43,599 bases of DNA from a virus. The stretch is from IMG/VR virus record IMGVR_UViG_3300044720_000100, positions 1 through 43,599 of that record; one strand, given 5' to 3'. The notes under the pieces were generated by a model. That model made no database searches. It saw nothing but the letters and a program-made list of their open reading frames with translations, and was not told where the DNA came from. The position numbers and the translations under genes were made by a program. Positions 14,260-37,030 of the stretch are shown here, piece after piece. Position 1 is the first letter of the stretch. Every line of letters starts with the position of its first letter.

Positions 14260-14309
14260 AGGGGTGTGATCACACCCCTGGCCATACATCGAACGGGTGT
14301 AATCACACC
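14260..14309. promoter_or_regulatory. Two palindromic operators between divergent genes
   Basis: AGGGGTGTGATCACACCCCT (14260-14279) is a perfect 20-bp palindrome. GGTGTAATCACACC (14296-14309) repeats its core with one central mismatch. Centre-to-centre distance is about 33 bp, close to three helical turns. They lie upstream of the HTH regulator (ATG 14338) and of the divergent membrane gene (start 14225). Autoregulation by the HTH protein is the simplest reading. Confidence 0.75.
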
Positions 14310-14337
14310 GTCTAGCCCGGCGTCTACGATCATCGCC

Positions 14338-19900: not shown

Positions 19901-19917
19901 TTCTAAGTGGGGTTGGT

Positions 19918-21768
19918 TTGGCCAAGAGCATTCTCATCGACGACGCCAAGAGCATCGTCCTGGACCAGCTTGCTGGCGGGGCGAAGGTTCGCGATGCGAT
20001 GCGGAAGGTCAACCGTTCGGAGGAGACGTACCGCTCCTGGCGGAAAGAGGACCCGAACTTCAAGTCCGCGGTGGACGCGATCCGCGAAGCCCACGAATCC
20101 GGCCAGCGTGCCAAGTCGGCCCTGCCGGACTTCCCCGAGTTCTGCGCCAAGTACCTGGACCGGCCTTTGCCGGAACACCACGTGCGGGCATGGGACGTTG
20201 TCCAGGGTAAAGACCCGACGGACTTGCACTATTCGATGCAATACCAGCCGGGGAAATCACCGGGCCGGTACATGATGATGAACTTCCCGCCGGAGCACGC
20301 CAAGTCGACGGTGTGGAATGTGCAGTACGTCCTGTGGCGGATCATCAAAGATCCGAACATCCAGATCATCACCATCTCCAAGTCGCAGGACATGGCGAAG
20401 AAGTTTCTCCGCCAGCTGAAGTTCTACTTGGAGAACCCGTCTTTGTTCCCGGCGTTGCACGCCGCTTTCGCCCCCGAGGGCGGGTGGAAGAACGAGGACA
20501 AGTCGGCTGGCCTCGCCTGGCGCGAGGACATGATTTACATCCGCGGGCGCACGGTCAGCGCCAAGGACCCCACCGTGGAAGCGAAGGGTTTGGGCGGGCA
20601 GATCTACGGCGCCCGCGCGGACCTCATCATCCTGGACGACATTGCCGACTTCAAGTCTGCCAGCGACTACGAGAAGCAAGCCGACTGGATCGGCCAGGAC
20701 GTGTTCTCCCGGCTGAACAAGAAGAACGGCCAGCTGTTGATCCTGGGCACCCGTGTGGGTGCCATGGACGTGTACCGCTGGTTGCGGGACGAGTCGAAGG
20801 ACGCCGCGGGCAGGCCGTTCTATACGTACTTCGCGCAGCCCGCGATCCTGGAGAACGAGTCGGCCCCGTGCGATGAGTGGGTTGTGCTGTGGCCCGACCA
20901 CGTCCCGGCTGGCGCCCTGGAGGACGCCAAGTCGGCCATGACGGATCAGCGCCGGTTCACGTTCGTCTACCAGCAGCGCGACGTCAGCGAGTACGCGGTG
21001 TTCCCCGCGGTGGCAGTGGACGCCGCAGTCAACGCCAAGCGGTTCTCCTGCCCGATGCAGCCGGGTGTGCCCGGCCACCGGGAGAACGGCATGGACGGGC
21101 TGTACGTCATCGCCTCGTGGGACCCGGCCAGCTCGGCCGGGCGTAACGCGATGATCTGCTACGGGGTGGACCGCTTCACCAAGAAGCGCTGGGTCATCGA
21201 CGTCTGGAACCGCAAGGGCGTGACGTCGGCGCAGAGCATCCCGCAGCTGAAGGCGTGGCAGGTGAAGTACCACGTCAACGAGTGGCGTATCGAGAAGAAC
21301 GCGGTGCAGCAGTTCATCACCCAGCTGCCCGAGATCCGCCAGTTCGTCAACGCCAACGGCGGGAAGATCGTCGAGCACGAGACCCGGCAGAACAAGTGGG
21401 ACCCGGTGAAAGGCATCGAAGGCCTGCTGGTCCCGCTGTTCCTGTCGTGCGTGCTGGAAGTGGGCGACCGGATGACCCCGAAGCCTGACGGCTCGGGCCT
21501 CATCGAGCTGCCCAGCAAGCGGCAGAACCCTCACGTCGTGGAGCTGTGCGAGCAGCTGAAGGCGTGGGAGGCCGAGGCGAAGCGCCTCGTCCAGGACCTG
21601 GTGATGGCTTTGTGGTTCGCCGAGCTGGGCGCTCGCGACTACCTCCGCGGGGCGCTGGGGGAGAAGACGCACATGGAGTCCAGGTGGACCTCTCGCGGGG
21701 ACAAGAGGTCCCGCACCGTCGTTCCGTGGGAAGAATTGCACCGGCAGGGGCTAGTCCATGCAGTCTGA
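19918..21768 (+). CDS. Terminase large subunit with N-terminal HTH-like region
   Basis: A 616-residue packaging motor. I chose TTG 19918 (after GTGGGG); the frame upstream runs through the hairpin leader and is not protein-like. Residues 1-60 (DDAKSIVLDQLAGGAKVRDA, RKVNRSEETYRSWRKEDPNF) look like the helix-turn-helix of small terminases. The ATPase has a Walker A-like FPPEHAKST at about 122-130, LIILDD at about 236 and ILGTR at about 275. The RNase H-like nuclease has SWDPASSAG at about 400 and VQDLVMALW near 560. No separate small terminase is seen nearby, so the N-terminus may supply DNA recognition. It overlaps the portal gene by 11 bases. Confidence 0.9.
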   Translation: MAKSILIDDAKSIVLDQLAGGAKVRDAMRKVNRSEETYRSWRKEDPNFKSAVDAIREAHESGQRAKSALPDFPEFCAKYLDRPLPEHHVRAWDVVQGKDPTDLHYSMQYQPGKSPGRYMMMNFPPEHAKSTVWNVQYVLWRIIKDPNIQIITISKSQDMAKKFLRQLKFYLENPSLFPALHAAFAPEGGWKNEDKSAGLAWREDMIYIRGRTVSAKDPTVEAKGLGGQIYGARADLIILDDIADFKSASDYEKQADWIGQDVFSRLNKKNGQLLILGTRVGAMDVYRWLRDESKDAAGRPFYTYFAQPAILENESAPCDEWVVLWPDHVPAGALEDAKSAMTDQRRFTFVYQQRDVSEYAVFPAVAVDAAVNAKRFSCPMQPGVPGHRENGMDGLYVIASWDPASSAGRNAMICYGVDRFTKKRWVIDVWNRKGVTSAQSIPQLKAWQVKYHVNEWRIEKNAVQQFITQLPEIRQFVNANGGKIVEHETRQNKWDPVKGIEGLLVPLFLSCVLEVGDRMTPKPDGSGLIELPSKRQNPHVVELCEQLKAWEAEAKRLVQDLVMALWFAELGARDYLRGALGEKTHMESRWTSRGDKRSRTVVPWEELHRQGLVHAV

Positions 21769-23590
21769 AATGACGGCCATCCAGCAGATCCACGTCCGTG
21801 TGCGCGACATGCGGTACTCCCCCCTGGCCGTGGAGCGCGACCAGCACATCCAGAACGTGCGCCTGGTGCGCCGGGGGCACATAGACCAGTTGTTCCCGGA
21901 CGCGTTCGTGGACGAGATGCAGCACTCCACGGTGGCGAACCTGGTGGAGACCGCTGCGCGGGACACCGCGGAGATGATGGCGCCGTTGCCGTCGCTGGCG
22001 TGTGCCAGCGGCAACATGGCCACCCAGTCGGACGAGAACCGCGCGGGCAAGAAGAACAAGATCGGCTCGTACTACTGGACGGCCAGCAGGCTGGCGCAGC
22101 AGATGCCCGAGTTCGCGGACTCGTACGGCAGCTACAGCTTCGGCTGCTTCGTGGTGGAACCCGACTTCGAGCACGGGTGCCCGAAGATCCGGGTCGAGTC
22201 CCCGTTCGGCGTGTACTACGAGCTGGACCGCTGGGGCCAGGTCAGGCAGTTCGCGAAGGTCACCTACGCCACCGCTGGCGCCCTGGTCGCCATGTATCCC
22301 GAGCACGCCTACGCGATCATGCAGCCGGGCGGGCAGCATGCCCCGCAACGGCACCACAACGACCTGCTGGAGATGATCCGGTACCAGGATCGTGAGTGCA
22401 CGGTCATCTACCTGCCGGACTGCCAGAACCTGGTGCTGGCCTACGCGCCCAACCGGCTGTCGCGGGTGCCGGTGGTGATCTGCGAGCGGTTCAGCCTGGA
22501 GGACACGCCAGGCGGGCAGTACGACGACGTGATCTGGGTGCAGCTGGCCCGCGCCCAGATGGCCATCTACATGCTGTCGGCCGCGGAGCAGTCGGTGAAC
22601 GCTGGCATCGCCCTGCCGGACGACGTGCAGAACGTGCCGTTCGGCCCGCTGTCGGTGTGGCGCTCCCAGTACCCCGAGAAGATCCGTCGGGTGGATCTGC
22701 CGATCCCCCGTGACGTGTTCATGCTCCAGCAGACGCTGGACGAGGAGCTGAAGACCGGCTCCCGCTACCCCGACTCCCGCACAGGCGGGGTGCAGGGCAA
22801 CATCGTCACCGGCAAGGGCGTTCAGGCCTTGCAGGGCACGCTGGACACCCAGATCAGCACCGCCCAGCTGCTGTTCTCCGCGGCACTGGAGGACGCCACC
22901 TCCATCTGCTTCGAGATGGACGTCCAGTTCTGGCCGTCCACGCCGAAGAAGATCGAAGGCCACATCACCGGCAGGCCGTTCGAGATCACCTACATCCCGA
23001 AGCGGGACATCGGCACGTCGTGGGGCTGCAAGGTCACCTACGGCTTCGCCGCGGGTATGACCCCGGCCCAAGCCATGGTCGGTATGCTCCAGCTGCGCGG
23101 TGATGCAGTGATCTCCCGCGACACTTTCCGCAGGCAGTTGCCGTTCGAGGTGGATGCGGAAGAGGAGCAGCGCGCGGTGGACCGTGAGCAGCTTGAGGAC
23201 AGCCTGAAGGAAGGCTTCAAGACCCTGTTGCAGTCGCTCGGTGCGATGGCGATGCAAGGACAAGACCCGCTCCCGATCGTGCTCAACGCTGCCAAAGCCA
23301 TCGAGCTGAGGCGCAAGGGCAAGGGCCTCGCGGAGGCCATCGAGCTGGCTCTCACTCCGGATAAGCCGGACCCGTCGGCGGTTGTCCCGGAACAAGCAGG
23401 TCCGCCCCCTGCCGAGTTGCCGCCTGGCGTGCAGGACTCGGGCCGCCTCCAGGGCGTGCCGCCCGGCCAGGCCGGTGCACCACCCGGTGGGATGCCCGCC
23501 ATCTCGGCGTTGATGGCCGAGATGCGCGGCAACGGTGACGCCCAGATGGGCGCCGCGGTCCTCCGCAAGCGCGCGATCGGACAGGGGTAA
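21758..23590 (+). CDS. Portal protein
   Basis: A 610-residue portal subunit, forming the dodecameric ring for DNA entry and exit. It directly follows terminase (11-base overlap; an ATG at 21770 is an alternative start). Composition and pattern fit portals: a long N-terminal helical part (YSPLAVERDQHIQNVRLVRR), the beta-rich wing (YGSYSFGCFVVEPDFEHGCP, ESPFGVYYELDRWGQVRQFA), LSRVPVVICERFSLEDTPGG, a helical stem and a Pro/Gly/Gln-rich C-terminus with AMAMQGQDPLPI. Family assignment rests on size, position and pattern rather than a single motif. Confidence 0.85.
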   Translation: MQSEMTAIQQIHVRVRDMRYSPLAVERDQHIQNVRLVRRGHIDQLFPDAFVDEMQHSTVANLVETAARDTAEMMAPLPSLACASGNMATQSDENRAGKKNKIGSYYWTASRLAQQMPEFADSYGSYSFGCFVVEPDFEHGCPKIRVESPFGVYYELDRWGQVRQFAKVTYATAGALVAMYPEHAYAIMQPGGQHAPQRHHNDLLEMIRYQDRECTVIYLPDCQNLVLAYAPNRLSRVPVVICERFSLEDTPGGQYDDVIWVQLARAQMAIYMLSAAEQSVNAGIALPDDVQNVPFGPLSVWRSQYPEKIRRVDLPIPRDVFMLQQTLDEELKTGSRYPDSRTGGVQGNIVTGKGVQALQGTLDTQISTAQLLFSAALEDATSICFEMDVQFWPSTPKKIEGHITGRPFEITYIPKRDIGTSWGCKVTYGFAAGMTPAQAMVGMLQLRGDAVISRDTFRRQLPFEVDAEEEQRAVDREQLEDSLKEGFKTLLQSLGAMAMQGQDPLPIVLNAAKAIELRRKGKGLAEAIELALTPDKPDPSAVVPEQAGPPPAELPPGVQDSGRLQGVPPGQAGAPPGGMPAISALMAEMRGNGDAQMGAAVLRKRAIGQG

Positions 23591-23593
23591 CAC

Positions 23594-23764
23594 GTGAAGA
23601 TCGAGATCATCGTGGCCAACCGTGGCTCTGTCACCGTGAAGACCGACGAGGACTGGGAGCCCGAGGAGCTGCTGAAGCTGATCCGCAAGGCCACCGGCTT
23701 CGCCAACAGCCTCAAGCCCGGCTCGCGCAAGGTGAAGCAGTTCGGTTTCGGGAGTGAACAGTGA
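23594..23764 (+). CDS. Small hypothetical protein (56 aa)
   Basis: GTG at 23594, three bases after the portal stop. The peptide begins VKIEIIVANRGSVTVKTDED, continues WEPEELLKLIRKATGFANSL and ends with a basic patch. It looks like a compact beta-beta-alpha protein. It overlaps the next gene by four bases (GTGA). It could be a small head component, by position only. Confidence 0.65.
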   Translation: MKIEIIVANRGSVTVKTDEDWEPEELLKLIRKATGFANSLKPGSRKVKQFGFGSEQ

Positions 23765-24195
23765 CCTCCCCCGCGCAAGTCTCCGGACCCGGCGCGCTGT
23801 CGCAGCGCACCGACACGGGCGGGCAGCCGATCCGCTCCCTGCCGGACCCCGACTACGGCGAAGCCACCGCGTTCAGGGACCAGCAGAAGGGCGCCCCCCT
23901 CGCGGAGGCGCCCAGCACGCCCAACCCCCGCATGCCCGAGCACGCCGCCGTTCCAGGTGGCATGGAACAGCCCACTTCTGTGGAGCCCCCGGTGGGGCTG
24001 TTCGCCCCCACCCAGCGCCCGGATGAGCCGATCACCGCTGGCGCCCCCGTGGGCGCCGGGCCGAACACCCTCTCGGGCGGACCTCTCGCGCCTCGCGCGT
24101 ACGCCACGTCGGAGCAGCTGCGCCAGTACGCGGCTGACGACAGCTCGGGCTCGCTGGCGTGGCTGGCGAACTTCCTCAACTCACAGGGGAACTAA
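23761..24195 (+). CDS. Pro/Ala-rich hypothetical protein (144 aa)
   Basis: GTG at 23761. The protein is low-complexity, rich in Pro, Ala, Gly and Thr (DTGGQPIRSLPDPDYGEATA, GAPVGAGPNTLSGGPLAPRA), with a short helical end (SEQLRQYAADDSSGSLAWLA NFLNSQGN region). Largely disordered. It sits between portal and the giant virion protein, so it may be a head-associated or scaffolding-type protein. No family recognised. Confidence 0.65.
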   Translation: MTSPAQVSGPGALSQRTDTGGQPIRSLPDPDYGEATAFRDQQKGAPLAEAPSTPNPRMPEHAAVPGGMEQPTSVEPPVGLFAPTQRPDEPITAGAPVGAGPNTLSGGPLAPRAYATSEQLRQYAADDSSGSLAWLANFLNSQGN

Positions 24196-24207: not shown

Positions 24208-27200
24208 GTGGCTAAGAAGTACTGGTGGCAGAAGGTCACCGATCCTGACCGGATCGTGCAGGCCGCTGCCGCACCCATCCACGACAGCCGCATCCGGACG
24301 GCCACGGCCATCCGCTACGCGGGCGCTTTCCCCGACGAGCCCGAGATCGCCCAGGCGCTGTCCAACAGCGCGCTCCCCACAGCCCTCGCACTGCGTGCGT
24401 TCCAGGGCTACCAGGCGACGAAGCAAGTAGCAATCACGGGTATCGCAGCAGGCGCGGGCTACGGCCCCAAGTCGCTGACCCCCGAGCTGGCCAAAGCCAC
24501 CGAGGTGAAGGCAGCTGTCGACCAGCCCGAGCCGCAAGGCGGCGCCGGGTTCTGGGATGGCGTGGGCACGGTGGCCAAGGTGGCACTGGGCGGGGTTGCC
24601 AACGGCGCAGCGGCTGTGGGCCACGCGGCGAAGAACGTGGGCGAGGGCCTCATGGAAGGCCTGAACAAGGTCGCCTCCCCGCTGACCGCTTCAGCCCAGG
24701 CGGGCTACGCCTCCGACAACGGGTTCGACCAGTTCCTCGGCAAGACGGCCATGCAGAACCGCGGCAACCCGATCGGTGCGGGTCTCGCCGCCATCAGCGG
24801 CGTGGCCAACACCCTGGAAGGTGCGGTCAAGCTGGCAGGCGGGGCTTCGGTTTCGCCCGAGCAGCAGGCGGACATGCGCCGAGCGAACTACAACCCGGAC
24901 TCCGCGGCCTCCCGGTACGCCTACTACTTCCAGTCGATGGGCAACAAGCGCGTGCCCGTGTCGGACACGGCCATCACCAAACTGAAGGCTGACGAGCGCT
25001 TCGCCCCCGGCGACGTGGACGCCGCCCGCGAGATCGTGTCCTCGGGTGCGCTCAACGACCTGACCCGTTCGGCTGACTCCCTGTCCGAGCAGGCCCGCGG
25101 CCTGCTGGACCGTGCGGGCTCCGACCAGAACGCCGAACTGCTGCTGCGCACGGTGGCCGACCACTCCCAGCTGACGTTCGGCGGGAACCTGGTGTCGATG
25201 TCCGCGCCCGAGCGCAAGGCGGGCGACTGGCTGGGGCAGGGCTCCACCTCCCGCACCATCGCGGCGGCTGCCGCAGACCTGATCGGCTACTGGTATGCGG
25301 ACCCGCTGGTCGCGGTGGGCGGTGGTGTCCGTGCGGTGCGCGGTGCCACCGCGGTCACCGAGGCTGGTGCTGGTAACGCGCTCACCCGGCGGTGGGCGTA
25401 CGGCGTGAACGCTCAGTCCATCGACGACGTCACCACGGCGATCCGTGCCACCGACGACGAGTTCCGCCCGGTGGGCGCGGTGGCAACCCGGTTTGACCAG
25501 GCTATGGACCAGGCGGACAGGATCGTCCGGCTCAACACCTCGGGTAAGCCCGAGGACGCCATTGAGGCGGGCCGAGCGTACGCGGACTGGACGAAGCTGT
25601 ACCCGTCGATGCGTCCTGCGTTCGACACCCTGATCGGGATGCGCTCTGGCGCGATCGGCAAGCTCACCATCCGTGAGGCCACGCAGGCCAAAGAAGCCGA
25701 CCGTGCGCTTCAGGGAGGCCGCAACGTGGCCCCCTGGACCATTGACGCACCCTCGGACGGTAGGCCGCTCTGGAGCCTGACAGACGACACGGGAAACGCC
25801 ATCTCAGCGGAGCTGCGCGCACAGGAGCGCGCCAAGGTTGCCGACGAGATGTCCGCGTTCATCCTCGCCGAGGCTTACGCCTCGGGCAGGGAGTTGACCC
25901 ACGGTCGCCTGCTAATGCCCGGCCAGATGTCCCTCAACGGTGCCCTGCGCAACGCGCTGGGCAAGTTCGGTGTGGACCTGTTGATGCGCCGCGACCGCTC
26001 CGCGATGCGGCAGCTGAAGGACAGCAAGGGCGCCATCGACCTCAACGGCGGTGTGGGCGCAGACCTCACCGGCCGGTACGACCAGCTTCTGTCGCCCCAG
26101 GCCGCCGAGTGGATGAGTAAGAACTACACGTTCGGCTTGAGTCACATGTTCGCCCGCGGATGGCGCAACTTCGAGCGCACGTTCAGCGGGAAGACCGTCA
26201 ACCCGCTGGATCCCAACTCGACCAAGGTCTACGGGCAGCTGGTGTCGCAGTTCATGCCCAAGCGGCAGGCCCAGATGGTCACCTCCCAGTACGCCGGGGC
26301 CAACCCCGGTGAGCGGTACGCCATGCTGCGTAACACGGTCAGTGGCTTCCTCAACACCATAAACCTGCGCAACACACCCGAAGCGCAGGAGCTGGTGGAG
26401 CAGATGACCAAGGGGTTGATCCCCTCGGACCGCGCCATCAACGGGTACAAGGCCGGTGGCCACGAGTGGTACACCACCCCCGACAACAACAACATCCGTG
26501 TCGGGGACTTCCGTCTTGCCGCGGGCGTACACCCGTGGCAGATGAACGAGGGCCTGGTGCTGCCCAACTGGCGCGAGGTCCGCTCCCTTGTGGACCGGGG
26601 CAAGGTGCTGAACGCCGTGCTCGGCACGGTCGGCCCGTGGGGCAACTCGTTGAACCAGGCGTGGAAGGCGACCAAGACTGCCTCGTGGGCGAACGCCGCC
26701 CGGCAAGGCATCGAAGGTTTCGCTTTCACCGCCGTGCGCAACCCTGAGGCGCTGAAAGGCTACCGGGGTGCTCGGGCCGCCGTGAAAGCGGACCTGTTGA
26801 CCCGGAAGGTCAACGACAACGACCTGTCGCGCCTGGCCAACACAGTGCGGAACTTCAACGCCGAAGACCTGCACTTGCTGGAGCAGGCCCGCCAGAAGGA
26901 CCCGGCCGTCTACGCGTCCACGATGCGCAGCATGCTGGGCCGCAACGGTTACGACCGCGGGCAGGCGGATGTCCTCACGCGACTGTCAGAGGATGTGGAC
27001 CTCAACGGCTTGGCGTCGGCCAACACGTTCGGCGTGGCCCGCTTGGCCATGGCCGGGCCCATCGACTTCGTGCGCAGGATCCGCGCAGAGCGGGCGGCCC
27101 GCAAGGGCGGGGAGGTCAACGACTCCCCGCTGGCCCAGTACCTGGACGAGGAGACGGCTGCCGCGTTCACCGAGAACGCGTTCAAGCAGCTGGGATCGGC

Positions 27201-30072
27201 TGCTGACAACTACGTGTCCTCGGCTGAGCGCATCGACCGCGCAACCCGACAGCAGGTGTTCTCAGCCGCGGGCCGTGGCTACACGAAGCGCCCGGCGAAG
27301 CTGGTGGACGCCTACAAGTGGCTGGGCTCCAAGTCCAAGGTCAACCACGACATGTGGTCCATGGAGCTGGACAAGCGGTTCGGCGACACCGCCAACAACC
27401 TGGTGATGCGCCTCGTGGCGCAGCGGGCTCTGGACGGCTGGGCCGAGAAGGCCCGACCGAAGCAGGTCGGCGAAGTGGCCGTGGACCTGGACGGTCTGAC
27501 CGCCTCGAAGATGGCTCAGCTCCTGCGCCAGGAGAAGACCGGCCCACTGACCGCCGAACACCAGGCCGTGGTGGACGCAGCCGCGCGCGTCCAGCAACTG
27601 TTGCAGCAGCAGTCCGCGCTGTCCGGCACCATGCGCGCGTCGGTGACGCGGGAGCTGAAGAAGTTCCGCGTGGACGAGGTTGACGACGCTGGCAAAACTG
27701 TCACCCGGTACGGCCCTTCCGGCGACGAACTCACCCACGCCCAAGCCGAGATCCAGCGCATCAACACGGAGGCGGCAGCCGACCCGCTGTTGCAGTCTGA
27801 GCGCTTCTCGTCTGTCGACGGACTGACCCGTTATCTGTACAGCCAACACGAGCTGGGCGCGGGCATGCGCACCAACTCGGCTCGCATGCAGTACCTGCCC
27901 AACGGGGAGCTGGCCCGCTCCGAGGCGGAGCGTGCGATAGCAGCCACCCGCACCGCGCAGACCGCGGTGGACGACCTGGTGCACCACTTGGGCGGGACCC
28001 TCACTCGCGACGAGGAAGCGGGCCGCACCGTGGTCCGGTTCAACGAAGCCTCCAAGCCGCTGCTGGAGAAGATCGCGGCAGGGCAGAAGCCCACGCCTGA
28101 CGACCTGGCCAGGCTGCCGCACGAGGTGTACCCCGAGGGCCTGGTGCACACCATGCAGGTGCCCACGCTGGCCGGGCAGGGCTCGGCCGCCCAGAAGCTG
28201 GCCAACGCAGCTTCCCGCGCGTACGGGACGATCGTGGCCGAGCCGTTGGCGCACATGGTGATGCAGCCCCTGTTCCTGGCTGAGCGCCGCATCGCCTACG
28301 GCGAGGTGGAGCCGTTGATGGAGCAGTTGGTGGCCCGCGGCTACAGCCAGGGCCAGGCCGCGTACGCCCTGGAGGCCATGGCCAACAACAGGGCCATCAA
28401 CCGCACGTTCCTGTCCACCGACAACCCCAACGAGAAGTCGGTGTTCTCCGAGCTGGGCGACAAGTACCTGATGTTCCAGCGGGCGCAGGAAGACTTCGTC
28501 CGCCGGTTCATCGGCGCAGCCACTGTCAACCCTGGCGCCCTGGGTCGGGCCAACCTGATGATGACCCAAGCCCAGCACGTGGGCTTGCTGCACAACGAGC
28601 CCATGCAGGACGAGCAGGGCAACACCGAGTACCGGCTGACATTCACCTACCCTGGCAGCGCGCTCGCGCAGCGGGTGCTGATGGACGCTGGGGTGGCGTT
28701 GGGTCTCGCTCCCGAGGAGATGCTGCGCATCCCCCAGTTCGACGGGCTCAAGTCGCAGGTGCGGTTCATCAACCCCGGCGTGGCCAACCCGTTGCAGTTC
28801 TCCGCGAACCCGGTGTTCGGCTGGGCGGTGGACGGCATGGAGAAGATCTGGCCGTCGCAGCGCATCGAGCTGGAGCGCCTGAAGCGGGGAGCCCAAGGCG
28901 GCGAGGACTTCGGCGGTGGCCAGTCCGCTTTGCAGCAGCTGATGCCCGCCATGCTCCAGCGGTTCGTGCCGCTGATGCAGCGTGACGACGCGGACGGACA
29001 GTTCGCGTCCGCTTTCCGTACGGCCACCATGTACGCCGAAGCCGCGGGGCAACTGCCCGGTCCGGACGCTTCACCCGAGGAGAAGTCGAAGGCGCTGGAC
29101 GCCGTGAAGGCGACCGCCACCAACATCCTCATCATGCGGGCGTTCACCGGCACGTTCCTCCCGGCCAGCCCCACCAACGCTGACCCGTCGATCACGGACG
29201 TGGACGTGCTGGGCAGACTCCAAGAGTTGCCGAACATCCGGGCCGAGTGGTTCCAGGTGAAGGCCGAGCTGGCCAAGAAGTACCCGGACAACTACTCCCG
29301 CGCGTACAGCGAGGCGCAGACCGAGTTCGCCCGCCGGTACCCCGGCCAACTGATCGTCAACCCGAAGGCTTTCGCTGTCGGCACCGTGGAGTTGCTGGGC
29401 ACCAGCGACACTGGCGACGCGGTGACTAACGTGCCGTACACCTTGGACGGCACCAGGTGGATGCTGGAGAACCTGGACTTCGTGAAGAACAACCCCACTG
29501 TCGCGCTGGCTTTGATGCCCCGCGACACCACGGGTGGTGACTTCAACAACGAGGCGTACAAGCTCCAGCTCAAGAGCGAGCTGCGCCAGCACAAAGACCT
29601 CGCCGACTTCTACCGGGATGTCACCTTGTCCGATGACATCTCCGAGTACCGCATGACCACCCAGAAGTACTCGGAGGCGGCGAAAGCCACGAGCACCGCC
29701 GCGGCCAAGGGGATCTACGCCAAGATGGAGCAGTTCCAAGACGGGTGGCGCCGAGCCCACCCGCTGGCTTCAGCAGAGCTGGACCGCCGGGCCGAACCGA
29801 ACTTCGTACACGCCGAGATGGCCCCCGCCTTGGAACGCCTGGCCACCGGCCAAGCCCAGCTCCCGCAAGGGCTTGAGGCGTACCGGCCCCAGATCACGGC
29901 CATGTACCAGGACTGGGCGGTCTACCGCGACAAGTACCTGAAGGTCGACTTCTTCAACAACGGCGAACGGGCTTCGCTGAACAAAATGTACCGCCAGCGT
30001 GGCAACCAGCAGTGGCTGGGTACACCGCTCGAATCCCTTTGGAAGCTCGTCGATGTCTACGAGGTGTCCTGA
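24208..30072 (+). CDS. Giant putative internal/ejected virion protein
   Basis: A 1954-residue protein from GTG 24208 with AAGGAG upstream; it fills 13% of the window. It is mainly helical, with Ala/Gly-rich hydrophobic segments near residues 115-145, 175-215 and 350-380 (TIAAAAADLIGYWYADPLVA), then long charged helices. There are no tail-tape repeats, no transglycosylase or peptidase motif that I can see and no frameshift gene beforehand. Late segments (PGVANPLQFSANPVFGWAVD; the last 40 residues ending SLWKLVDVYEV) recall the giant polyvalent or ejection proteins of podoviruses. Position between portal and capsid fits a protein packed in the head and delivered with the DNA. It could instead be an atypical tape measure. 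Confidence 0.7.
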   Translation: MAKKYWWQKVTDPDRIVQAAAAPIHDSRIRTATAIRYAGAFPDEPEIAQALSNSALPTALALRAFQGYQATKQVAITGIAAGAGYGPKSLTPELAKATEVKAAVDQPEPQGGAGFWDGVGTVAKVALGGVANGAAAVGHAAKNVGEGLMEGLNKVASPLTASAQAGYASDNGFDQFLGKTAMQNRGNPIGAGLAAISGVANTLEGAVKLAGGASVSPEQQADMRRANYNPDSAASRYAYYFQSMGNKRVPVSDTAITKLKADERFAPGDVDAAREIVSSGALNDLTRSADSLSEQARGLLDRAGSDQNAELLLRTVADHSQLTFGGNLVSMSAPERKAGDWLGQGSTSRTIAAAAADLIGYWYADPLVAVGGGVRAVRGATAVTEAGAGNALTRRWAYGVNAQSIDDVTTAIRATDDEFRPVGAVATRFDQAMDQADRIVRLNTSGKPEDAIEAGRAYADWTKLYPSMRPAFDTLIGMRSGAIGKLTIREATQAKEADRALQGGRNVAPWTIDAPSDGRPLWSLTDDTGNAISAELRAQERAKVADEMSAFILAEAYASGRELTHGRLLMPGQMSLNGALRNALGKFGVDLLMRRDRSAMRQLKDSKGAIDLNGGVGADLTGRYDQLLSPQAAEWMSKNYTFGLSHMFARGWRNFERTFSGKTVNPLDPNSTKVYGQLVSQFMPKRQAQMVTSQYAGANPGERYAMLRNTVSGFLNTINLRNTPEAQELVEQMTKGLIPSDRAINGYKAGGHEWYTTPDNNNIRVGDFRLAAGVHPWQMNEGLVLPNWREVRSLVDRGKVLNAVLGTVGPWGNSLNQAWKATKTASWANAARQGIEGFAFTAVRNPEALKGYRGARAAVKADLLTRKVNDNDLSRLANTVRNFNAEDLHLLEQARQKDPAVYASTMRSMLGRNGYDRGQADVLTRLSEDVDLNGLASANTFGVARLAMAGPIDFVRRIRAERAARKGGEVNDSPLAQYLDEETAAAFTENAFKQLGSAADNYVSSAERIDRATRQQVFSAAGRGYTKRPAKLVDAYKWLGSKSKVNHDMWSMELDKRFGDTANNLVMRLVAQRALDGWAEKARPKQVGEVAVDLDGLTASKMAQLLRQEKTGPLTAEHQAVVDAAARVQQLLQQQSALSGTMRASVTRELKKFRVDEVDDAGKTVTRYGPSGDELTHAQAEIQRINTEAAADPLLQSERFSSVDGLTRYLYSQHELGAGMRTNSARMQYLPNGELARSEAERAIAATRTAQTAVDDLVHHLGGTLTRDEEAGRTVVRFNEASKPLLEKIAAGQKPTPDDLARLPHEVYPEGLVHTMQVPTLAGQGSAAQKLANAASRAYGTIVAEPLAHMVMQPLFLAERRIAYGEVEPLMEQLVARGYSQGQAAYALEAMANNRAINRTFLSTDNPNEKSVFSELGDKYLMFQRAQEDFVRRFIGAATVNPGALGRANLMMTQAQHVGLLHNEPMQDEQGNTEYRLTFTYPGSALAQRVLMDAGVALGLAPEEMLRIPQFDGLKSQVRFINPGVANPLQFSANPVFGWAVDGMEKIWPSQRIELERLKRGAQGGEDFGGGQSALQQLMPAMLQRFVPLMQRDDADGQFASAFRTATMYAEAAGQLPGPDASPEEKSKALDAVKATATNILIMRAFTGTFLPASPTNADPSITDVDVLGRLQELPNIRAEWFQVKAELAKKYPDNYSRAYSEAQTEFARRYPGQLIVNPKAFAVGTVELLGTSDTGDAVTNVPYTLDGTRWMLENLDFVKNNPTVALALMPRDTTGGDFNNEAYKLQLKSELRQHKDLADFYRDVTLSDDISEYRMTTQKYSEAAKATSTAAAKGIYAKMEQFQDGWRRAHPLASAELDRRAEPNFVHAEMAPALERLATGQAQLPQGLEAYRPQITAMYQDWAVYRDKYLKVDFFNNGERASLNKMYRQRGNQQWLGTPLESLWKLVDVYEVS

Positions 30073-31664
30073 TGCCATTCACTTACGGTCCTGACGGCGT
30101 GGTCATCACGTCGGGCGGAGGCGTCGGCACCGGCCTGTACGGCCACGTGCAGGGCCAGCTCGGCGCGAAGAACGACGCAGCCACCATCGCCGCACAGGTG
30201 GCCGAGATGAACGCCGCCGTGCAGCAGGCACGCGTGGTGGGTGCCCCCAACCTGGGGCAGGCGGGCCGCCGGGCAGGCGACAGCCAAGCGCCCCAGGTGT
30301 CCGCACCGCCGAAGCCGGTGCCTTCGCTGTTCGCCCCCTCGAAGCCCCGTCAGGACCCGACCGGCCTGAAGATGCCGGGTGAGCCCACGTTGGGCAGCGA
30401 CTTCCCCGGTGGCGTGTACGTGTCGGTCCCGAAGGGCAAGACGGGCCTGCCAGAACTCTCCGCACCTTCACCAGCTACCGACAAGAACGCGGCCAACGAC
30501 AAGGCCGAGCAGGAGCACAAGTCCAAAGAGGTCCAGTCGATCGCCGCCGCGAGGGCGGCCGACAAGCTGTACGACACCACCATCAAGGACATGCTGGACG
30601 ACATCCACAAGGACCCGGCGAAGGACCCCGAGGCCGAGCGGGTGGCGGGCATCCTCGCTTCCGAGTTCAAGGCGTCCGTGTGGGGCCGGACCTGGTCGTT
30701 GGACGAGGTGAACAACAACCCGCTCGTGCGGGAGCTGAACAACATCTCGATCTGGTCCACCTACCGGCGCAAGGTGTCGGAGTGGCAGGCGGGCAAGAAC
30801 AAGCTGGGCACGGAGACCAACGACTCTGGCGACGGGTCGTTCAACACCATGGTCACCGGCAGCTTCTCCTCGAAGACGGGCACGGGCAACGTGCCCGGCA
30901 TCATGGTGGCCCGCGACGAAGAGGGCCTGCTGTACATCACCGACGTGGACACGTGGATCAACGGCAAGATGGCGGACATGAAGGCCGACCCCCAGTTGGC
31001 GGCCGACACCATCACCGCCCTGGCGTCCATCCAGGCGTACGGCGGCGACAGCGCCGCCAACTCGGCAGCCGGTTCCCGCGTGGTCACCGACGGCGCGGGC
31101 AACCCGGTCAAGGCGTTCATCTCCAACGAGGACTACACCGCGTTGAAGAACATCGCCTTGCTGGCGGTCAACTCCCAGGCCGCGGGCAACACGGAGACGC
31201 TGGACGACTTCTTCGGCAGCCTCACCGCGCAGTCGCAGGACGTGTACCACGACCCGCAGTGGGAGCCGCCATCTGATGACGGCGGTGGTGGTGGTCGTGG
31301 TGGAGGCGGCTACGGGGGTGGCGGTGGCGGAGGCGGCACGGGCTCCGTGCGCTACACCGACTCGGAGCAGCTGGGCGCCCAAGTGGACGCCATCGCGCGC
31401 CAGCGGATGGGCAGGCAGCTCACGCCTGAAGAGAAGGTTGAGTTCATCAACTACTACCACAAGCTGGAGGAGACGATGACGGCCGCGTACTACGCGGGCC
31501 AGTCCACGACCCAGCTCGACCCCGAAGGGGAAGCGGTGGGGTGGATGGAGTCCCGTTTCGAGCAGGAACGCGGCAAGCAGGCGTACGGCTCGTTGGCCGG
31601 GAAGTTCATGCAGATCATCGGATCCGGTGGCTTCTCGGGCGCGCTGTCCAGTGGGGGTAACTGA
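30072..31664 (+). CDS. Putative internal virion protein with Gly-rich linker
   Basis: A 530-residue protein; ATG at 30072 overlaps the giant gene stop. Residues 1-170 are low-complexity Pro/Ala/Lys; 170-390 are helical (AARAADKLYDTTIKDMLDDI, NNISIWSTYRRKVSEWQAGK); then a poly-Gly linker at about 400-425; then a compact helical domain: YTDSEQLGAQVDAIARQRMG, RQLTPEEKVEFINYYHKLEE. This RxMGRxLTxEE module recurs in phage internal or tail proteins. It ends in hydrophobic helices. It forms a row with the three other large helical proteins and probably belongs to an ejection complex. Confidence 0.65.
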   Translation: MPFTYGPDGVVITSGGGVGTGLYGHVQGQLGAKNDAATIAAQVAEMNAAVQQARVVGAPNLGQAGRRAGDSQAPQVSAPPKPVPSLFAPSKPRQDPTGLKMPGEPTLGSDFPGGVYVSVPKGKTGLPELSAPSPATDKNAANDKAEQEHKSKEVQSIAAARAADKLYDTTIKDMLDDIHKDPAKDPEAERVAGILASEFKASVWGRTWSLDEVNNNPLVRELNNISIWSTYRRKVSEWQAGKNKLGTETNDSGDGSFNTMVTGSFSSKTGTGNVPGIMVARDEEGLLYITDVDTWINGKMADMKADPQLAADTITALASIQAYGGDSAANSAAGSRVVTDGAGNPVKAFISNEDYTALKNIALLAVNSQAAGNTETLDDFFGSLTAQSQDVYHDPQWEPPSDDGGGGGRGGGGYGGGGGGGGTGSVRYTDSEQLGAQVDAIARQRMGRQLTPEEKVEFINYYHKLEETMTAAYYAGQSTTQLDPEGEAVGWMESRFEQERGKQAYGSLAGKFMQIIGSGGFSGALSSGGN

Positions 31665-31666
31665 CC

Positions 31667-32569
31667 ATGTCGATGCCCATCCAGGTCCGCACCACCCCGC
31701 CCGGGCCCGAAGACGTCGCGGCCCAGTACGGCTTCGTCACGATGATCGCGCAGCAAATCCCCGAGATCGGGGCCTTGATGCAGCAGGCGGTCAACGAGAA
31801 CTGGACTGCGGACAGGTTCTCCCTGGCCTTGGCTGCGACCGGCTGGTGGAAGTCCACGCCGGACGCCGTGCGTCAGTGGACGGTGAAGCAGATCGCAGAC
31901 CCGGCTTCCGCCGAGCGTGAGCTGAACACCGGCTCGGACAAGATCCGCAACCTGACCACCGCCCTGGGCTTGCGGTTGCCGGACATCAACGAGGCCCGCG
32001 GCCTCTTCCTGCGCGGACAGCTGGACGGCTTGGACGAGACCGGCCTGCAAGCCCTTCTCGCGCGGACACTGCTCGGCCCCGCACCCGGCCAAGAGGCGGG
32101 GACGTACGGGGAACTGGTCAACGGGATGTACGACCTGGCGTTCAAGTACGGCTACAGCGCCCCCGATCTGGCGCAGCAGGTTCACCAGGAAGCCCGCAAC
32201 ATCCTCCAGGCAGGTGGTGACACCAGCCGGGTGGGTTTGACCGGCTGGCAAGGCAAGGTGCAGCAGTACGCGGCAGCCAAGTACACGCCTTTCGCCGACC
32301 GCATCCGCGGTGGCGAGACGGTGGTGGACATCGCCCGCCCGTACATGGACTCCTACGCCCGCGTGCTGGAGCAGGCGCCCAGCGCCGTGAAGCTGGACGA
32401 CCCGCTGTTGCAGCAGGCCCTCCAGGGCGACGGGACCGCGGCGAAGCCGGTGTGGGCGTTCGAGCAGGAACTGCGCAAAGACGAGCGCTGGGGGCAGACC
32501 AACAACGCCAAGGACGCGGCAGGCAAAGCGCTGACGTCCATCGGTCGGGCCTTCGGAATGATCGGCTGA
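31667..32569 (+). CDS. Putative internal virion protein (300 aa)
   Basis: ATG at 31667, directly after the previous stop. The protein is all helical. Recognisable patterns are AATGWWKSTPDAVRQWTVKQ, LGLRLPDINEARGLFLRGQL and, near the end, RGGETVVDIARPYMDSYARV followed by FEQELRKDERWGQTNNAKDA. I recall the PYxxxxxxxLE...LRKDxRWxxTxNA pattern from virion proteins of short-tailed phages, but I cannot verify it here. No enzyme motif. Likely part of the ejection set. Confidence 0.65.
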   Translation: MSMPIQVRTTPPGPEDVAAQYGFVTMIAQQIPEIGALMQQAVNENWTADRFSLALAATGWWKSTPDAVRQWTVKQIADPASAERELNTGSDKIRNLTTALGLRLPDINEARGLFLRGQLDGLDETGLQALLARTLLGPAPGQEAGTYGELVNGMYDLAFKYGYSAPDLAQQVHQEARNILQAGGDTSRVGLTGWQGKVQQYAAAKYTPFADRIRGGETVVDIARPYMDSYARVLEQAPSAVKLDDPLLQQALQGDGTAAKPVWAFEQELRKDERWGQTNNAKDAAGKALTSIGRAFGMIG

Positions 32570-32573
32570 CGAC

Positions 32574-33410
32574 ATGACCTCACCGAACCCGGCGTTCGAC
32601 AACGCCTGGACCATGATGGCCGCAGTGCTCCAGCAGTGGGGCCTGGACTCGTTGTCCTCTGTGGTCCGCGACATGCTCACCGCTGGCGACAGCACCGACG
32701 TCATCCCGTTGAAGCTGCGCCAGACCGAGCAGTACAAGGCTCGGTTCTCCGGCAACCTGCTGCGCCAGAAGGCGGGCCTGCCCGCCCTGTCCGAGTCGGA
32801 GTACCTGGGCACCGAAGCCACGTACAAGTCGATCCTGCGGCAGTACGTGGGCTCGGGCGCCTACGACAGCAAGGATCAGCTGGACAAGTTCTTCGGGTCA
32901 AACGTCAGCCCGGCCGAGCTGAACAACCGGATGCAGGAGCACCAGGAGTTCTACCAGTCCAAGCCCCAACGGGTGAAGGACGCCTGGGCCGCGGTCGGCC
33001 TCACCCCGGCCGACGCCATCCGCACCACGCTGGACCCCACCGTCACCGAGACCGACCTGAAGCGGCGGCTGGCCGCGTTCAGCATCTCGGCCGAGGCGTT
33101 CAACGCCTACGGCGACTACCAGATCGACCAGCCCCGCCTGCTGGACCTGGCCGACCGCGGTGTCAGCACCACGGACGCCGCCAAGGCGTTCCAGGAAGTG
33201 GCGGGGCGGGCCAGCGAGGACAAGCTGATCGGCTCCCGTTCGGGTATCGACCTCACCCGCAACGACCTGGAGAACGAGCTGCTGACCGGCGACGCCGCGG
33301 CGAAGCAGAAGCGCACGTCGGCGTACCAGCAGGAGGACGCCAGGTTCAAGCAGAACTACCTGGGCACCCAGCAGGGCGCCCTCGGCAAGGACGTGCAGGG
33401 GCGGTACTAA
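32574..33410 (+). CDS. Putative internal virion protein (278 aa)
   Basis: ATG at 32574, four bases after the previous stop. Helical throughout. It contains the pattern LKLRQTEQYKARFSGNLLRQ, KAGLPALSESEYLGTEATYK, a flexible DSKDQLDKFFGSNVSPAELN and a second helical half (RLLDLADRGVSTTDAAKAFQ). The TExYKxRFxGN...GLPxLSExEYLxxE motif recurs beside structural genes in many actinophages and aquatic short-tailed phages. Fourth of the large helical proteins between portal and scaffold. The late promoter motif follows its stop. Confidence 0.68.
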   Translation: MTSPNPAFDNAWTMMAAVLQQWGLDSLSSVVRDMLTAGDSTDVIPLKLRQTEQYKARFSGNLLRQKAGLPALSESEYLGTEATYKSILRQYVGSGAYDSKDQLDKFFGSNVSPAELNNRMQEHQEFYQSKPQRVKDAWAAVGLTPADAIRTTLDPTVTETDLKRRLAAFSISAEAFNAYGDYQIDQPRLLDLADRGVSTTDAAKAFQEVAGRASEDKLIGSRSGIDLTRNDLENELLTGDAAAKQKRTSAYQQEDARFKQNYLGTQQGALGKDVQGRY

Positions 33411-33502: not shown

Positions 33503-33575
33503 TGGGAAGTAGCTCAGTCGGTAGAGCGGTGGATTGTTAATCCGCAGGTCCCAGGTTCGATCCCTGGTTTCCCAG
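33503..33575 (+). tRNA. tRNA-Asn (anticodon GTT)
   Basis: A full cloverleaf: acceptor TGGGAAG/TTTCCCA with a G-T at the last pair, D-arm GCTC-AGTCGGTA-GAGC, anticodon stem GTGGA/TCCGC with loop TTGTTAA (anticodon GTT at 33536-33538), variable AGGTC, T-arm CCAGG-TTCGATC-CCTGG and discriminator G. CCA is not encoded directly. It lies in the late structural operon right after the late leader. The phage RNA ligase at 5753 could repair it or host tRNAs if cut. Confidence 0.95.
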
Positions 33576-33694
33576 CTCCAGCACCACGTGTCCGAGGTGG
33601 CCGCTGTGTATTCGAATCGGACGGTTTGGCCATCCCGCGCACTTACCCCTCGGTGCGTGGCGGGCTCTCTGAGGGTGAGATGGAGAACTGAATC
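33576..33694 (+). other. Untranslated stretch before scaffold
   Basis: No gene. TGTCCGAGGTGGCCG followed by TATTCGAATCGG looks like fragments of a second tRNA (D-arm-like and T-loop-like) but does not fold into one. CCCGC-GCAC...GTGC-GTG-GCGGG (about 33633-33664) is a strong hairpin 30 bases upstream of the scaffold start, which could be an RNA-processing or stability element. Confidence 0.45.
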
Positions 33695-34186
33695 ATGAGC
33701 GAGTTCTTGAACGCTGAGAACGGTGAGCAGGGCAAGCCCGAAGAGGGCAAGTCGCTCCGCGCTTTCGCTGAAGCCCAGGCGGCTGAGAATGCCGCACTGA
33801 AGGCCGAGCTGGCCACCGTGAAGCAGACGCTCGCTGCGCAAAGCTTCAAGTCCATCTGGGATGGGCTTGACGTGCAGGTCCCCGAGAAGACTCGCGCGTT
33901 CTACACGGGCGAGGCGGACCCCGAGGCCGTCAAGAAGTGGGTCGCCGACAACCAGGACGTTTTCCGGTTCGAGGCGAAAACCACCGAGGGCGCCGAAGGC
34001 GACGGCGGGACCGACAACGCAGAAGCGATCGCACAGCAGGCCGCTCTGGACGCCGCGCAAGGTCTGGGCCGTGACAAGACGCACGTCGGTTACGCCGCCA
34101 GCATCGCGCAGTTGAAGGAGCACAGGAACTCGCCGACTCGAAACGAAGCCGACCTGGACAAGGCGCTCTCTTTCCTGCCTGACTAA
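33695..34186 (+). CDS. Putative scaffolding protein
   Basis: A 163-residue acidic protein from ATG 33695. It has a predicted coiled coil (FAEAQAAENAALKAELATVK), a middle segment (VPEKTRAFYTGEADPEAVKK WV region) and a disordered acidic/Gly stretch (TTEGAEGDGG) before a basic end. Small, coiled-coil, acidic and immediately upstream of the capsid gene is the standard profile of phage scaffolds that guide shell assembly and then leave. No protease is seen. Confidence 0.82.
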   Translation: MSEFLNAENGEQGKPEEGKSLRAFAEAQAAENAALKAELATVKQTLAAQSFKSIWDGLDVQVPEKTRAFYTGEADPEAVKKWVADNQDVFRFEAKTTEGAEGDGGTDNAEAIAQQAALDAAQGLGRDKTHVGYAASIAQLKEHRNSPTRNEADLDKALSFLPD

Positions 34187-34224: not shown

Positions 34225-35175
34225 ATGGCCGATACCACCACCACCGTCTGGACGGACTACGTCGAGACGGCTTTCGACACCGTCGCAGAGACCTACCTCA
34301 AGGCGCAGGTGCAGTTCCGCGCCATGGTCGACAAGCGTCCCGCCGCGCAGGCCATGCCTGGCGACGTCATCACGCTGACCATCGGCAAGCAGCTGGCCGC
34401 GTCGAGCACCCCTCTCACCGAGGGCTCGGACGTCACGCCCGTCGCGATGCCCGCACCGCGCAGGGTCACCGTGACCCTGGCCGAGTACGGCAACGTCGTG
34501 CAGTACACCAACCTGCTGACCAAGGTCGCCTTCACCAAGACGGTGGCCAAGGACATCGGCATGGAGATCGCCGAGAACCAGTCGGAGTCTCTGGACGCGG
34601 TGTACAAGGCGATCCTGGACGCTGGCACCAACAAGCTGTGGCAGCACACCAACGGCACGTTCGCCACCACCGACCAGACCACGAACACCGGGGTGCTGAA
34701 GGCCACCGCTGTGGCCGCGGCCGTGTCGCTCCTGAAGAAGCGGCGCGCGATGAAGCGGGACGGCGCCTTCTACGTGGCGCACATCCACCCGGACGTGGCG
34801 TACGACCTCCGTCTGGAGACGGGCACCACGGCGTGGGCGAACCCCCACCAGTACGTGGACACCGCCCAGATCTACGCGGGCGAGATCGGTTCGTTCCACG
34901 GCGCACGGTTCGTGGAGAACGACCGGTGCACCACGGTCACCTCTGGTGTCGTGCAGTACAACACCTACTTCTTCGGCAAGCAGGCCATCGCGGAAGCGGT
35001 GGCCGAGGAGCCGCACACGGTCGTGGGTCTCCAGACGGACAAGCTGAAGAGGTTCAGCCCGGTCGGCTGGTACGGCATTCTCGGCGCCTCGCTTTACAGG
35101 CAGAACGCGCTTCAGCTCGTTCGCTCGTCCGCTTCTATCGCCGGTCTCGGCGGGGCTGTGGACTACTCGGCCTGA
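34225..35175 (+). CDS. Major capsid protein (N4-gp56/HK97-like)
   Basis: A 316-residue protein from ATG 34225, with GAAGAGAGC upstream. The pattern YLKAQVQFRAMVDKRPAAQA, then DVITLTIG, SSTPLTEGSDVTP, VTLAEYGNVVQYTNLLTKVA, DIGMEIAENQSESLDAVYKA and HIHPDVAYDLR closely follows the N4-gp56 family of HK97-fold capsids, typical of short-tailed phages. The basic RRAMKRDGAF region and the C-terminal ILGASLYRQNALQLV fit the A-domain end. It is followed by a strong terminator, as expected for a highly expressed gene. Confidence 0.87.
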   Translation: MADTTTTVWTDYVETAFDTVAETYLKAQVQFRAMVDKRPAAQAMPGDVITLTIGKQLAASSTPLTEGSDVTPVAMPAPRRVTVTLAEYGNVVQYTNLLTKVAFTKTVAKDIGMEIAENQSESLDAVYKAILDAGTNKLWQHTNGTFATTDQTTNTGVLKATAVAAAVSLLKKRRAMKRDGAFYVAHIHPDVAYDLRLETGTTAWANPHQYVDTAQIYAGEIGSFHGARFVENDRCTTVTSGVVQYNTYFFGKQAIAEAVAEEPHTVVGLQTDKLKRFSPVGWYGILGASLYRQNALQLVRSSASIAGLGGAVDYSA

Positions 35176-35680: not shown

Positions 35681-37030
35681 ATGGCCGCACCCGTTTGGGC
35701 GAGTGCCGGAACGTACCTGTCGGGTACCGCGTCGACTTTGAACGTCGCGGTCCCGTCGGGTGTTGTCGCGGACTCGGTCGTCACGGTCACCGCTTTCCTC
35801 GACAGCACTACCACCGTCACGGCCGCGCCTTCCGGGTTCACCCAGTGCACGGCTTCGCCTGCGGACATCGCGGCCAACCACCGCCTGGTGAAGTACTGGA
35901 AGCGCGCTACGGGCGCGGACTCCGGAACGTACGACTTCACGCTGTCGGGTAGCGCGTACCGCAACGCGGTGGCCGAGCGGTACAGCGGGTGCGTCACCAC
36001 AGGCGACCCGTGGGACGCCTCCCCGACGAGCGCCACGGATGCCACGAACGGCACAGTCACACCCTCGGTGAACATCACCACCGCAGGCGCCGATCGTCTT
36101 GTGGTGTGGTCGGGCTCGGACTGGGCAGGCGGTACCTGGACGCCGCCCACCGGGTTCACCGAGCGGGTGGACCAGGGTGACGGCCTGATCTCGGTGGCCA
36201 CGAAGACCCAGGCGGTGGCTGGTGCCACTGGCGGGGTGACCGGCACGTGCACCGGCAGCGACAAGCGGACCGCCTGGATGGGGGCTCTCATCCCCGCGGG
36301 GGCCGGGACTATCACGGTCTCCCCGTCCGGCATCGCCAGCACGGCCGTTCTCGGTGCACCTGTCGTGTCTGTGGGGGCCGTAACCGTGTCCCCCGGTGGT
36401 ATCACCCCAGGGAGCGCTGTCGGCGCTCCTACGCTCAGCCAGGTTGTGGCGCCTACCGGCGTGGCTTCTACTGCCGCACTGGGCAGCCCGACCCTGACCC
36501 GTGGCGCCATCACCGTCACGCCCTCGGGCGTGGCCAGCACCGCAGCCGTGGGTTCCCCGGTCCTCACGGCAGGCGGGCTGGTGGTCCAGCCCAGCGGTGT
36601 CGCATCAACCGCGGCGGTGGGTTCGCCCACCGTCACCGCCAACAGCACCACCGTGTCGCCCACGGGCGTTGCCAGCACAGCGCAGCCCGGCACGCCGAGC
36701 CTGACGTTCGGTCCGATCACCATCACGTTGTCGGGTGTCGGCTCGACAGGGGCGGTGGGTTCGCCGACCGTCACGGTGACGTTCAACGGCTGGCGGCTGG
36801 TGCCGCCCAGCGTCACCCACTTGTTCTCGATCCGGGGACGCCTACTCCAGTCCCTCGTCGAAGAGTCCCATGTGGCCGGTGACAACGCCACCCTCACCAC
36901 GTACGGGCCGAGCGAGGAAATCCCCGAGGACGCCCTGCACGTCTGGTTGGGCGGCCACCGGAACACCACCACCGATCCAGCTATCCGTGCCCTGTGGATC
37001 TCACAGGGCTACACCGTGGAGGCGTTGTGA
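35681..37030 (+). CDS. Repeat-bearing virion adhesin/fibre protein
   Basis: A 449-residue protein from ATG 35681. Residues 1-200 form a beta-sandwich-like domain (GTYLSGTASTLNVAVPSGVV, VTVTAFLDSTTTVTAAPSGF, WSGSDWAGGTWTPPTGFTER). Residues about 208-366 hold seven repeats of about 22 residues, each like ITVTPSGVASTAAVGSPVLT. The last 80 residues are a separate domain (WRLVPPSVTHLFSIRGRLLQ...). Repeats of this VxPSGVASTAAxGxP type are known from phage head or tail appendages. It probably binds the host surface; copy number could vary by recombination. Confidence 0.78.
   Translation: MAAPVWASAGTYLSGTASTLNVAVPSGVVADSVVTVTAFLDSTTTVTAAPSGFTQCTASPADIAANHRLVKYWKRATGADSGTYDFTLSGSAYRNAVAERYSGCVTTGDPWDASPTSATDATNGTVTPSVNITTAGADRLVVWSGSDWAGGTWTPPTGFTERVDQGDGLISVATKTQAVAGATGGVTGTCTGSDKRTAWMGALIPAGAGTITVSPSGIASTAVLGAPVVSVGAVTVSPGGITPGSAVGAPTLSQVVAPTGVASTAALGSPTLTRGAITVTPSGVASTAAVGSPVLTAGGLVVQPSGVASTAAVGSPTVTANSTTVSPTGVASTAQPGTPSLTFGPITITLSGVGSTGAVGSPTVTVTFNGWRLVPPSVTHLFSIRGRLLQSLVEESHVAGDNATLTTYGPSEEIPEDALHVWLGGHRNTTTDPAIRALWISQGYTVEAL
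36304..36780. repeat. Imperfect ~66-bp repeats coding for 22-residue units
   Basis: Seven imperfect copies within the fibre gene. The peptide core PSGVASTAAVGSP is best conserved in copies 3-5. DNA similarity between neighbours is high enough for slippage. Confidence 0.75.

Follow-up and report, generated by a model that had tools for sequence, protein, structure and literature searches.

A four-gene module between the portal and scaffold genes

The viral record IMGVR_UViG_3300044720_000100 (43,599 nucleotides, analysed in its full length and hereafter called the window) carries four consecutive plus-strand genes between its portal gene and its scaffold and capsid genes, at exactly the coordinates given in an initial annotation of this DNA. 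The first gene (24208-30072, GTG start) encodes P0001, a giant helical protein of 1954 residues that we propose to be the main ejection protein. It is followed by the genes for P0002 (30072-31664, ATG start; 530 residues), P0003 (31667-32569; 300 residues, phrog_6654), itself a conserved module, and a conserved partner, P0004 (32574-33410; 278 residues, phrog_8424, a family listed as function unknown). The giant gene overlaps the P0002 gene by 1 base, the next two gaps measure 2 and 4 bases, and none of the four proteins contains a cysteine in 3062 residues. As the initial annotation had suggested, the four genes probably specify an internal virion complex that a temperate podovirus infecting Actinomycetota ejects with its DNA. 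What was established directly is the gene order, the homology with phages whose tails measure 16 nm by microscopy, the linkage of the gene families, the peptidoglycan domains in relatives and a near-zero cysteine content; from these we infer that the proteins lie in the virion, are ejected, unfold and serve as a conduit.

Because the G+C content of the window is ~65%, chance open reading frames (ORFs) reach great length, for example 697 residues on the minus strand. All four module genes represent conserved protein families and are therefore not chance ORFs, and the window has at least three clustered genes, one of them very large, near its head genes.

The module is shared with short-tailed Streptomyces phages

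The window portal protein (21758-23590, plus strand; phrog_104) matches 31 phage records at 39-42% identity, and 29 of these are Streptomyces phages. In the Streptomyces phage Dennebes (Beephvirinae, Flowerpowervirus), the genes are ordered TerL, endolysin, portal, small genes, gp9 (1635 residues), gp10-gp13, tRNA array, scaffold and capsid. BLAST of the window against Dennebes gave 37% identity for the terminase large subunit TerL (19780-21768, plus strand; phrog_38, T7-type NCBIfam model below cut-off), 40% for the portal, 42% for the major capsid protein (34225-35175, plus strand), 28-32% for P0003 against gp11 and gp12, and 28% for P0004 against gp13. The cysteine-free 144-residue protein encoded immediately 5' of the giant gene (23761-24195, plus strand; phrog_8200) is a homologue of Dennebes gp7 (44% over 89 residues), and the 163-residue scaffold-like protein (33695-34186, plus strand) matches gp36, annotated as a scaffolding protein (32% over 72 residues). 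TerL, portal, capsid, scaffold and giant are homologous and stand in the same order in the two phages. On these matches, the window module is a divergent counterpart of a set of unannotated genes of the Streptomyces cluster BF phages (Beephvirinae). Across this cluster (Flowerpowervirus, Immanueltrevirus, Manuelvirus), the order is TerL, portal, small genes, giant, ejection-like genes, tRNA(s), scaffold and capsid, as in the window, and the same module is found in the uncultured phage ct2KA10 and in hundreds of related IMG/VR contigs. The window differs from cluster BF in having one P0003 copy with neither an NlpC/P60 nor an SLT domain, where BF phages have the P0003 family duplicated with both; in having one tRNA and a giant of 1954 residues instead of a tRNA array and a giant of 1635-1644 residues; and in its endolysin, which is of GH25 type and lies in the left arm instead of between TerL and portal.

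Abafar is a podovirus by electron microscopy with a tail of 16 +/- 2 nm (PMC11536984), and its gene in the place of the giant encodes 1644 residues. Destructrice, also of cluster BF, is described with a tail of 16 +/- 2 nm and with "no identifiable tape measure protein" (PMC13097060). FlowerPower and others are likewise reported as imaged podoviruses. The syntenic relatives thus agree with the short-tailed actinophage proposed at the outset.

The module is common among viral contigs. A related portal is encoded by at least 529 of the first 600 pattern matches listed in a scan of viral contigs, and a related giant by at least 474 of the 600 matches listed in a second scan, which does not support the earlier remark that podovirus-type actinophages are relatively rare. 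The portal searches seeded 80 loci, of which 55 were examined for a giant, the rest being judged to hold too little sequence. An ORF of more than 800 residues was present in 54 of the 55, closed in 49 of these; the exception, L070, ends 1.8 kb past the portal. Conversely, in all 38 loci that were fetched with the giant and reach far enough, a portal gene lies 594-818 bases upstream. Downstream of the giant, the P0003 family is present in 57 of 57 testable loci and the P0004 family in 55. One scan of bacterial and archaeal genomes returned one relative, in a 196-kb contig of Streptomyces composti, with no PF00589 integrase among the matches listed on that contig. An antisense ORF of 1645 residues (L167, 12910-17847, minus strand) spans the whole giant gene (1630 residues) there, most likely through the effect of high G+C content on stop codons.

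The giant protein forms a highly divergent family

Neither tblastn of the window giant against 50,697 phage records nor a single-sequence scan of viral contigs with it gave any match; the family was revealed only through portal searches, an alignment-based scan and chained BLAST. BLAST joins all 52 giants compared, from the window, Dennebes, ct2KA10 and 49 loci found through their portals, into a single group, in which the window giant and Dennebes gp9 have no direct match and are linked through intermediates. The clade of the window giant includes only two other contigs (L009/L088 and L004), with ~31% identity over the giant, while the remaining giants share ~10-20% identity with it. Among 121 distinct relatives the giants span 1247-1886 residues. 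Giants were aligned in three sets: A5 comprises 44 of the 49 closed giants after removal of near-duplicates, A6 comprises 38 of them after short N-terminal halves were removed as well (both headed by the window giant), and A7 comprises 28 diverse giants. Three residues, A1426, D1468 and G1471, are invariant in A7.

Pfam found no enzyme family in the 28 giants, in keeping with the earlier statement that the giant has no assigned enzyme activity. phrog_10618 (function unknown) matches 12 of the 28 homologues and not the window giant itself. No match of the giant to a polymerase appeared in Pfam, NCBIfam or PDB sequences, with predicted folds that are uncertain. Several matches were set aside as chance: a weak one to GrpB in Pfam (E 0.72), DUF6468 and DUF4080 (each in one of the 28 giants), PHROG matches confined to single giants, including a "tail associated lysin" (E 0.0018), and all matches from PDB sequence searches.

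AlphaFold2 models of the giant are helical and of low confidence, both for the C-terminal 875 residues (pLDDT 64, pTM 0.48) and for the N-terminal 1090 residues (pLDDT 55, pTM 0.35). The earlier description of the four proteins as mostly helical holds, at this level of confidence, for the giant, the one protein of the four that was modelled. In BFVD, the C-terminal model reached E < 0.001 for seven viral proteins only, and the three that are named are all uncharacterized. With VIA-align, neither half convincingly matched a solved fold. Because the matches of both halves are mostly single helical stretches of ~50-90 residues, with Z < 8 and in unrelated proteins, we name no fold for the giant.

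No transmembrane segment was found in the window giant, and in 10 of the 52 giants one or two marginal segments occur at scattered positions. By the same measure T7 gp15 and gp16 also lack a strong segment, a resemblance that we count in favour of ejection. Profile comparison (hhalign) of the giant family with T7 gp15 and gp16, P22 gp16 and gp20, N4 gp51 and phiKMV gp36 and gp37 gave probabilities of at most 0.4%, with a sensitivity limited by the use of single-sequence targets.

Peptidoglycan domains occur on relatives of P0003

The counterpart of P0003 in Dennebes gp11 and gp12 is their C-terminal two thirds. The N-terminal heads of this family differ and swap among relatives, being NlpC/P60, SLT or PG_binding_1. 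In Dennebes, the gp11 head is NlpC/P60 (Pfam, E 1.9e-29) and the gp12 head is an SLT transglycosylase (Pfam, 28.7 bits, cut-off 21.3), the latter seen only in a scan of the isolated head; phmmer of the gp12 head against the PDB gave no match. The P0003 homologue of the closest relative, L009, carries PG_binding_1 and that of the Streptomyces composti contig carries NlpC/P60. Swapping of hydrolase domains of the same kind has been noted among T7-type ejection proteins (PMC8954989).

Among 102 ORFs downstream of giants, 52 contain a P0003-type and 40 a P0004-type domain. We aligned 76 of them with the three window proteins (A8, 79 in total), and Pfam recognised NlpC/P60 in two of these 79, and PG_binding_1, PG_binding_3, LysM and Glycos_trans_3N in one each. 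Since most heads match no Pfam family, a wall-acting role is indicated for only a few members of the P0003 family. In loci with just two genes after the giant (L028, L032, L040 and similar), the P0003-type protein may be longer, ~520-550 residues, with an N-terminal half that has no identification.

The N-terminal part of P0002 has no matches, and a resemblance to the proteins at the same position in relatives is confined to its C-terminal ~97 residues. Only the closest relative was matched directly, the others by a weak profile match (hhalign probability 67%, or 90% for the C-terminal part alone).

Module proteins almost completely exclude cysteine

We counted cysteines in 159 viral-contig loci, taking ORFs of at least 120 residues and giants of at least 1200 residues. 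The giants contain 2 cysteines in 196,883 residues (119 of 121 distinct proteins have none), the P0003 family 2 in 50,870 (111 of 112 have none) and the P0004 family 1 in 43,995 (98 of 99 have none). The portals of these loci contain 454 in 83,686 residues (5 of 150 have none), TerL 515 in 63,098 (0 of 118) and the capsid family 7 in 10,951 (25 of 32). The single cysteine of Dennebes gp11 (433 residues) is in its NlpC/P60 head, a domain whose catalytic residue is a cysteine.

The same holds in model phages, where all 11 ejection proteins checked from T7, P22, N4 and phiKMV lack cysteine (9,926 residues; T7 gp14, incomplete in the stretch used, was left out and N4 gp50 was counted over 3342 residues only). 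Another 36 structural and packaging proteins of model phages, picked by hand from annotated regions and not exhaustive, contain 137 cysteines in 18,894 residues, with 8 of 36 having none. Cysteine absence agrees with passage of a protein through portal and tail. The trait does not set ejection proteins apart from tape measures and is shared by some capsids and scaffolds. In the open-licence literature we found no report of cysteine absence in ejection or internal virion proteins, which is no proof that the trait is unpublished; the available text of PMC10052503 and PMC12633501 is silent on it.

An ejection complex is the most probable function of the module

In the mechanism that we propose, the giant and its partners would be packed inside the head, probably on the portal. 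At adsorption, the four proteins would pass down the short tail in a wholly or partly unfolded state; within the thick wall and at the membrane, they would assemble again and provide a conduit for the DNA. P0003 would serve as a carrier module, which in relatives is fused to domains that cut or bind peptidoglycan.

Several observations weigh against this proposal. The giant models are poor (pLDDT 64 and 55), and the profile comparison with the ejection proteins of T7, P22, N4 and phiKMV gave nothing. No peptidoglycan domain was found by Pfam in the window P0003, which consists of the common part only, or in the other module proteins. Both tape measures tested, lambda H and phiC31 gp43, also lack cysteine, as do several capsid and scaffold proteins, including the P22 and phiKMV scaffolds, and the Dennebes capsid, gp40 and gp44. 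Finally, ejection proteins are described for phages of Gram-negative hosts and as absent from phi29-like phages in PMC8954989.

The last point leads to the alternative that survives best, though we consider it unlikely, namely that the proteins are external parts of the short tail, at its tip or as appendages, with the P0003 family as tail-end wall hydrolases like phi29 gp13 and the giant as a scaffold of the tip. The phi29-like phages, the model podoviruses of Gram-positive hosts, are described as lacking ejection proteins (PMC8954989), and Dennebes gp11 and gp12, with their NlpC/P60 and SLT domains, are annotated "minor tail protein". Against external tail parts, the genes are placed between those for portal and scaffold, away from the tail-like genes 3' of the capsid gene; the module is almost free of cysteine, whereas phi29 gp9, gp12 and gp13 have 3, 9 and 7; and a 16-nm tail leaves little space for an outer protein of 1644 residues.

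That the giant is instead an injected enzyme, such as an N4-type virion RNA polymerase or a polyvalent protein, appears improbable. Its size and the N4-gp56 family capsid would suit such a role, and N4 also groups a giant gene and two smaller ejection genes near the capsid gene, but downstream of it; yet the 28 giants yielded no Pfam enzyme, no PDB sequence match and no confident fold. Still less probable are head-assembly factors that act as an internal core or as chaperones and stay in the particle throughout. The genes do adjoin the scaffold gene, and the P22 and phiKMV scaffolds are likewise without cysteine, but the peptidoglycan domains on P0003 relatives would be of use only during entry or lysis.

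That the window giant is the tape measure of a long tail is, on homology with the BF phages, very unlikely, and the least probable identity considered: the giant is large, helical and free of cysteine, as are lambda H and phiC31 gp43, but profile comparison found no relation to either of these, its gene lies 5' of the capsid gene, and at ~0.15 nm of tail per residue a protein of 1644 residues would imply ~250 nm, so that giants of 1635-1644 residues in a group with 16-nm tails are not tape measures. Consistent with the initial annotation, a PHROGs scan of right-arm proteins found no tape-measure or tail-tube family in a set that does not cover every small ORF of the window.

Comparison of the proposed ejection complex with known systems

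As far as the indirect evidence reaches, the module would act like the T7 and N4 complexes, and we claim no kinship by homology; at the level of sequence, it has no detectable relation to the ejection systems of phages of Gram-negative hosts. T7 is a podovirus, as the window phage is predicted to be, and its ejection proteins (gp14, gp15, gp16) are likewise encoded side by side, large and free of cysteine, one of them with a peptidoglycan domain (PMC8954989) of the kind seen in relatives of P0003. T7 differs in that its gp16 has 1318 residues against 1954 in the window giant, in that the hydrolase of the window's relatives is on a separate, smaller protein, and in the Gram-positive host predicted here. 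The N4 phage (Schitoviridae) resembles the window in its N4-gp56 type capsid and in having a giant cysteine-free protein and two smaller ones (gp51/gp52) in the structural block. Unlike in N4, no polymerase is recognised in the window giant, the gp51 comparison was negative, and the module stands on the other side of the capsid gene. The phi29 phage (Salasmaviridae) is also a podovirus of a Gram-positive host; unlike what is proposed for the window, it is described without ejection proteins (PMC8954989), and its tail proteins contain cysteine.

We tentatively suggest, at somewhat less than even likelihood, that podoviruses of actinobacteria have an independent ejectosome, with a giant unrelated to those of T7, P22 and N4 and with exchangeable wall-cutting heads, and that proteins threaded through the portal exclude cysteine almost absolutely, such that ejected proteins could be read from sequence in uncultured phages. 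If true, a widespread giant-protein module in short-tailed actinophages would show how a 16-nm tail can serve a thick wall, and Abafar, Dennebes and FlowerPower are cultured model phages for it. Cysteine exclusion would be a cheap sequence mark, applicable to any phage genome, for proteins that travel through phage channels.

Lifestyle and host

The last gene of the window (42565-43599, minus strand) encodes a tyrosine integrase. It scores 20 bits with PF00589, under the cut-off of 27.1, and matches NF040815 with E 1.7e-5; the residues R, HxxR, H and Y are recognisable by eye, and the integrase of the closest relative (G001, a 43.5-kb contig) is over the PF00589 cut-off. No PF00239 serine integrase was found in the window. 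These matches support a temperate lifestyle, as first proposed, whereas the BF phages are reported to be lytic (PMC11536984, PMC13097060). The record starts with an ATG and ends with the start codon of the integrase gene, and direct terminal repeats were not found, the longest word common to the two 300-base ends being 8 bases; the ends of the window look as if trimmed to the limits of genes, perhaps out of a prophage.

A regulator with HTH_31 and DUF5753 domains is encoded at 13834-15186, where the listed ORF adds an N-terminal extension of ~170 residues without a match; it possibly controls lysogeny. DUF5753 is linked to actinobacteria. Because of the relatives and this regulator, the host is predicted to be an actinobacterium and thus Gram-positive.

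Other features of the window

The capsid gene product passes the test for the N4-gp56 family (TIGR04387, 88.4 bits, cut-off 60), which confirms the capsid type first assigned to it. The GH25-type endolysin (7986-8882) lies between helicase-like and primase-like genes.

A lone tRNA-Asn(gtt) gene (33503-33576, plus strand), overlooked in the initial annotation, separates the four-gene module from the scaffold gene, exactly where cluster BF phages have large tRNA arrays. These arrays hold 22 tRNAs in Dennebes and 14 in Abafar, with Asn gtt in both, and no tRNA was found in the examined stretches of 34 other loci. The lone tRNA may be a remnant or a seed of such an array.

Further tail and structural genes follow the capsid gene on the plus strand. 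They encode a minor-tail-like protein (35681-37030; phrog_6813, phrog_8501), a structural protein homologous to Dennebes gp44 (37248-38162), a tail-fibre-like protein of 574 residues (38170-39894), homologous to Dennebes gp45 across its first ~126 residues, and a structural protein that is a nozzle candidate (39899-41782; phrog_11667), with a weak match to the head-closure family Hc3 (phrog_578, E 0.0057). Although encoded outside the proposed ejection module, the tail-fibre-like protein is free of cysteine as well.

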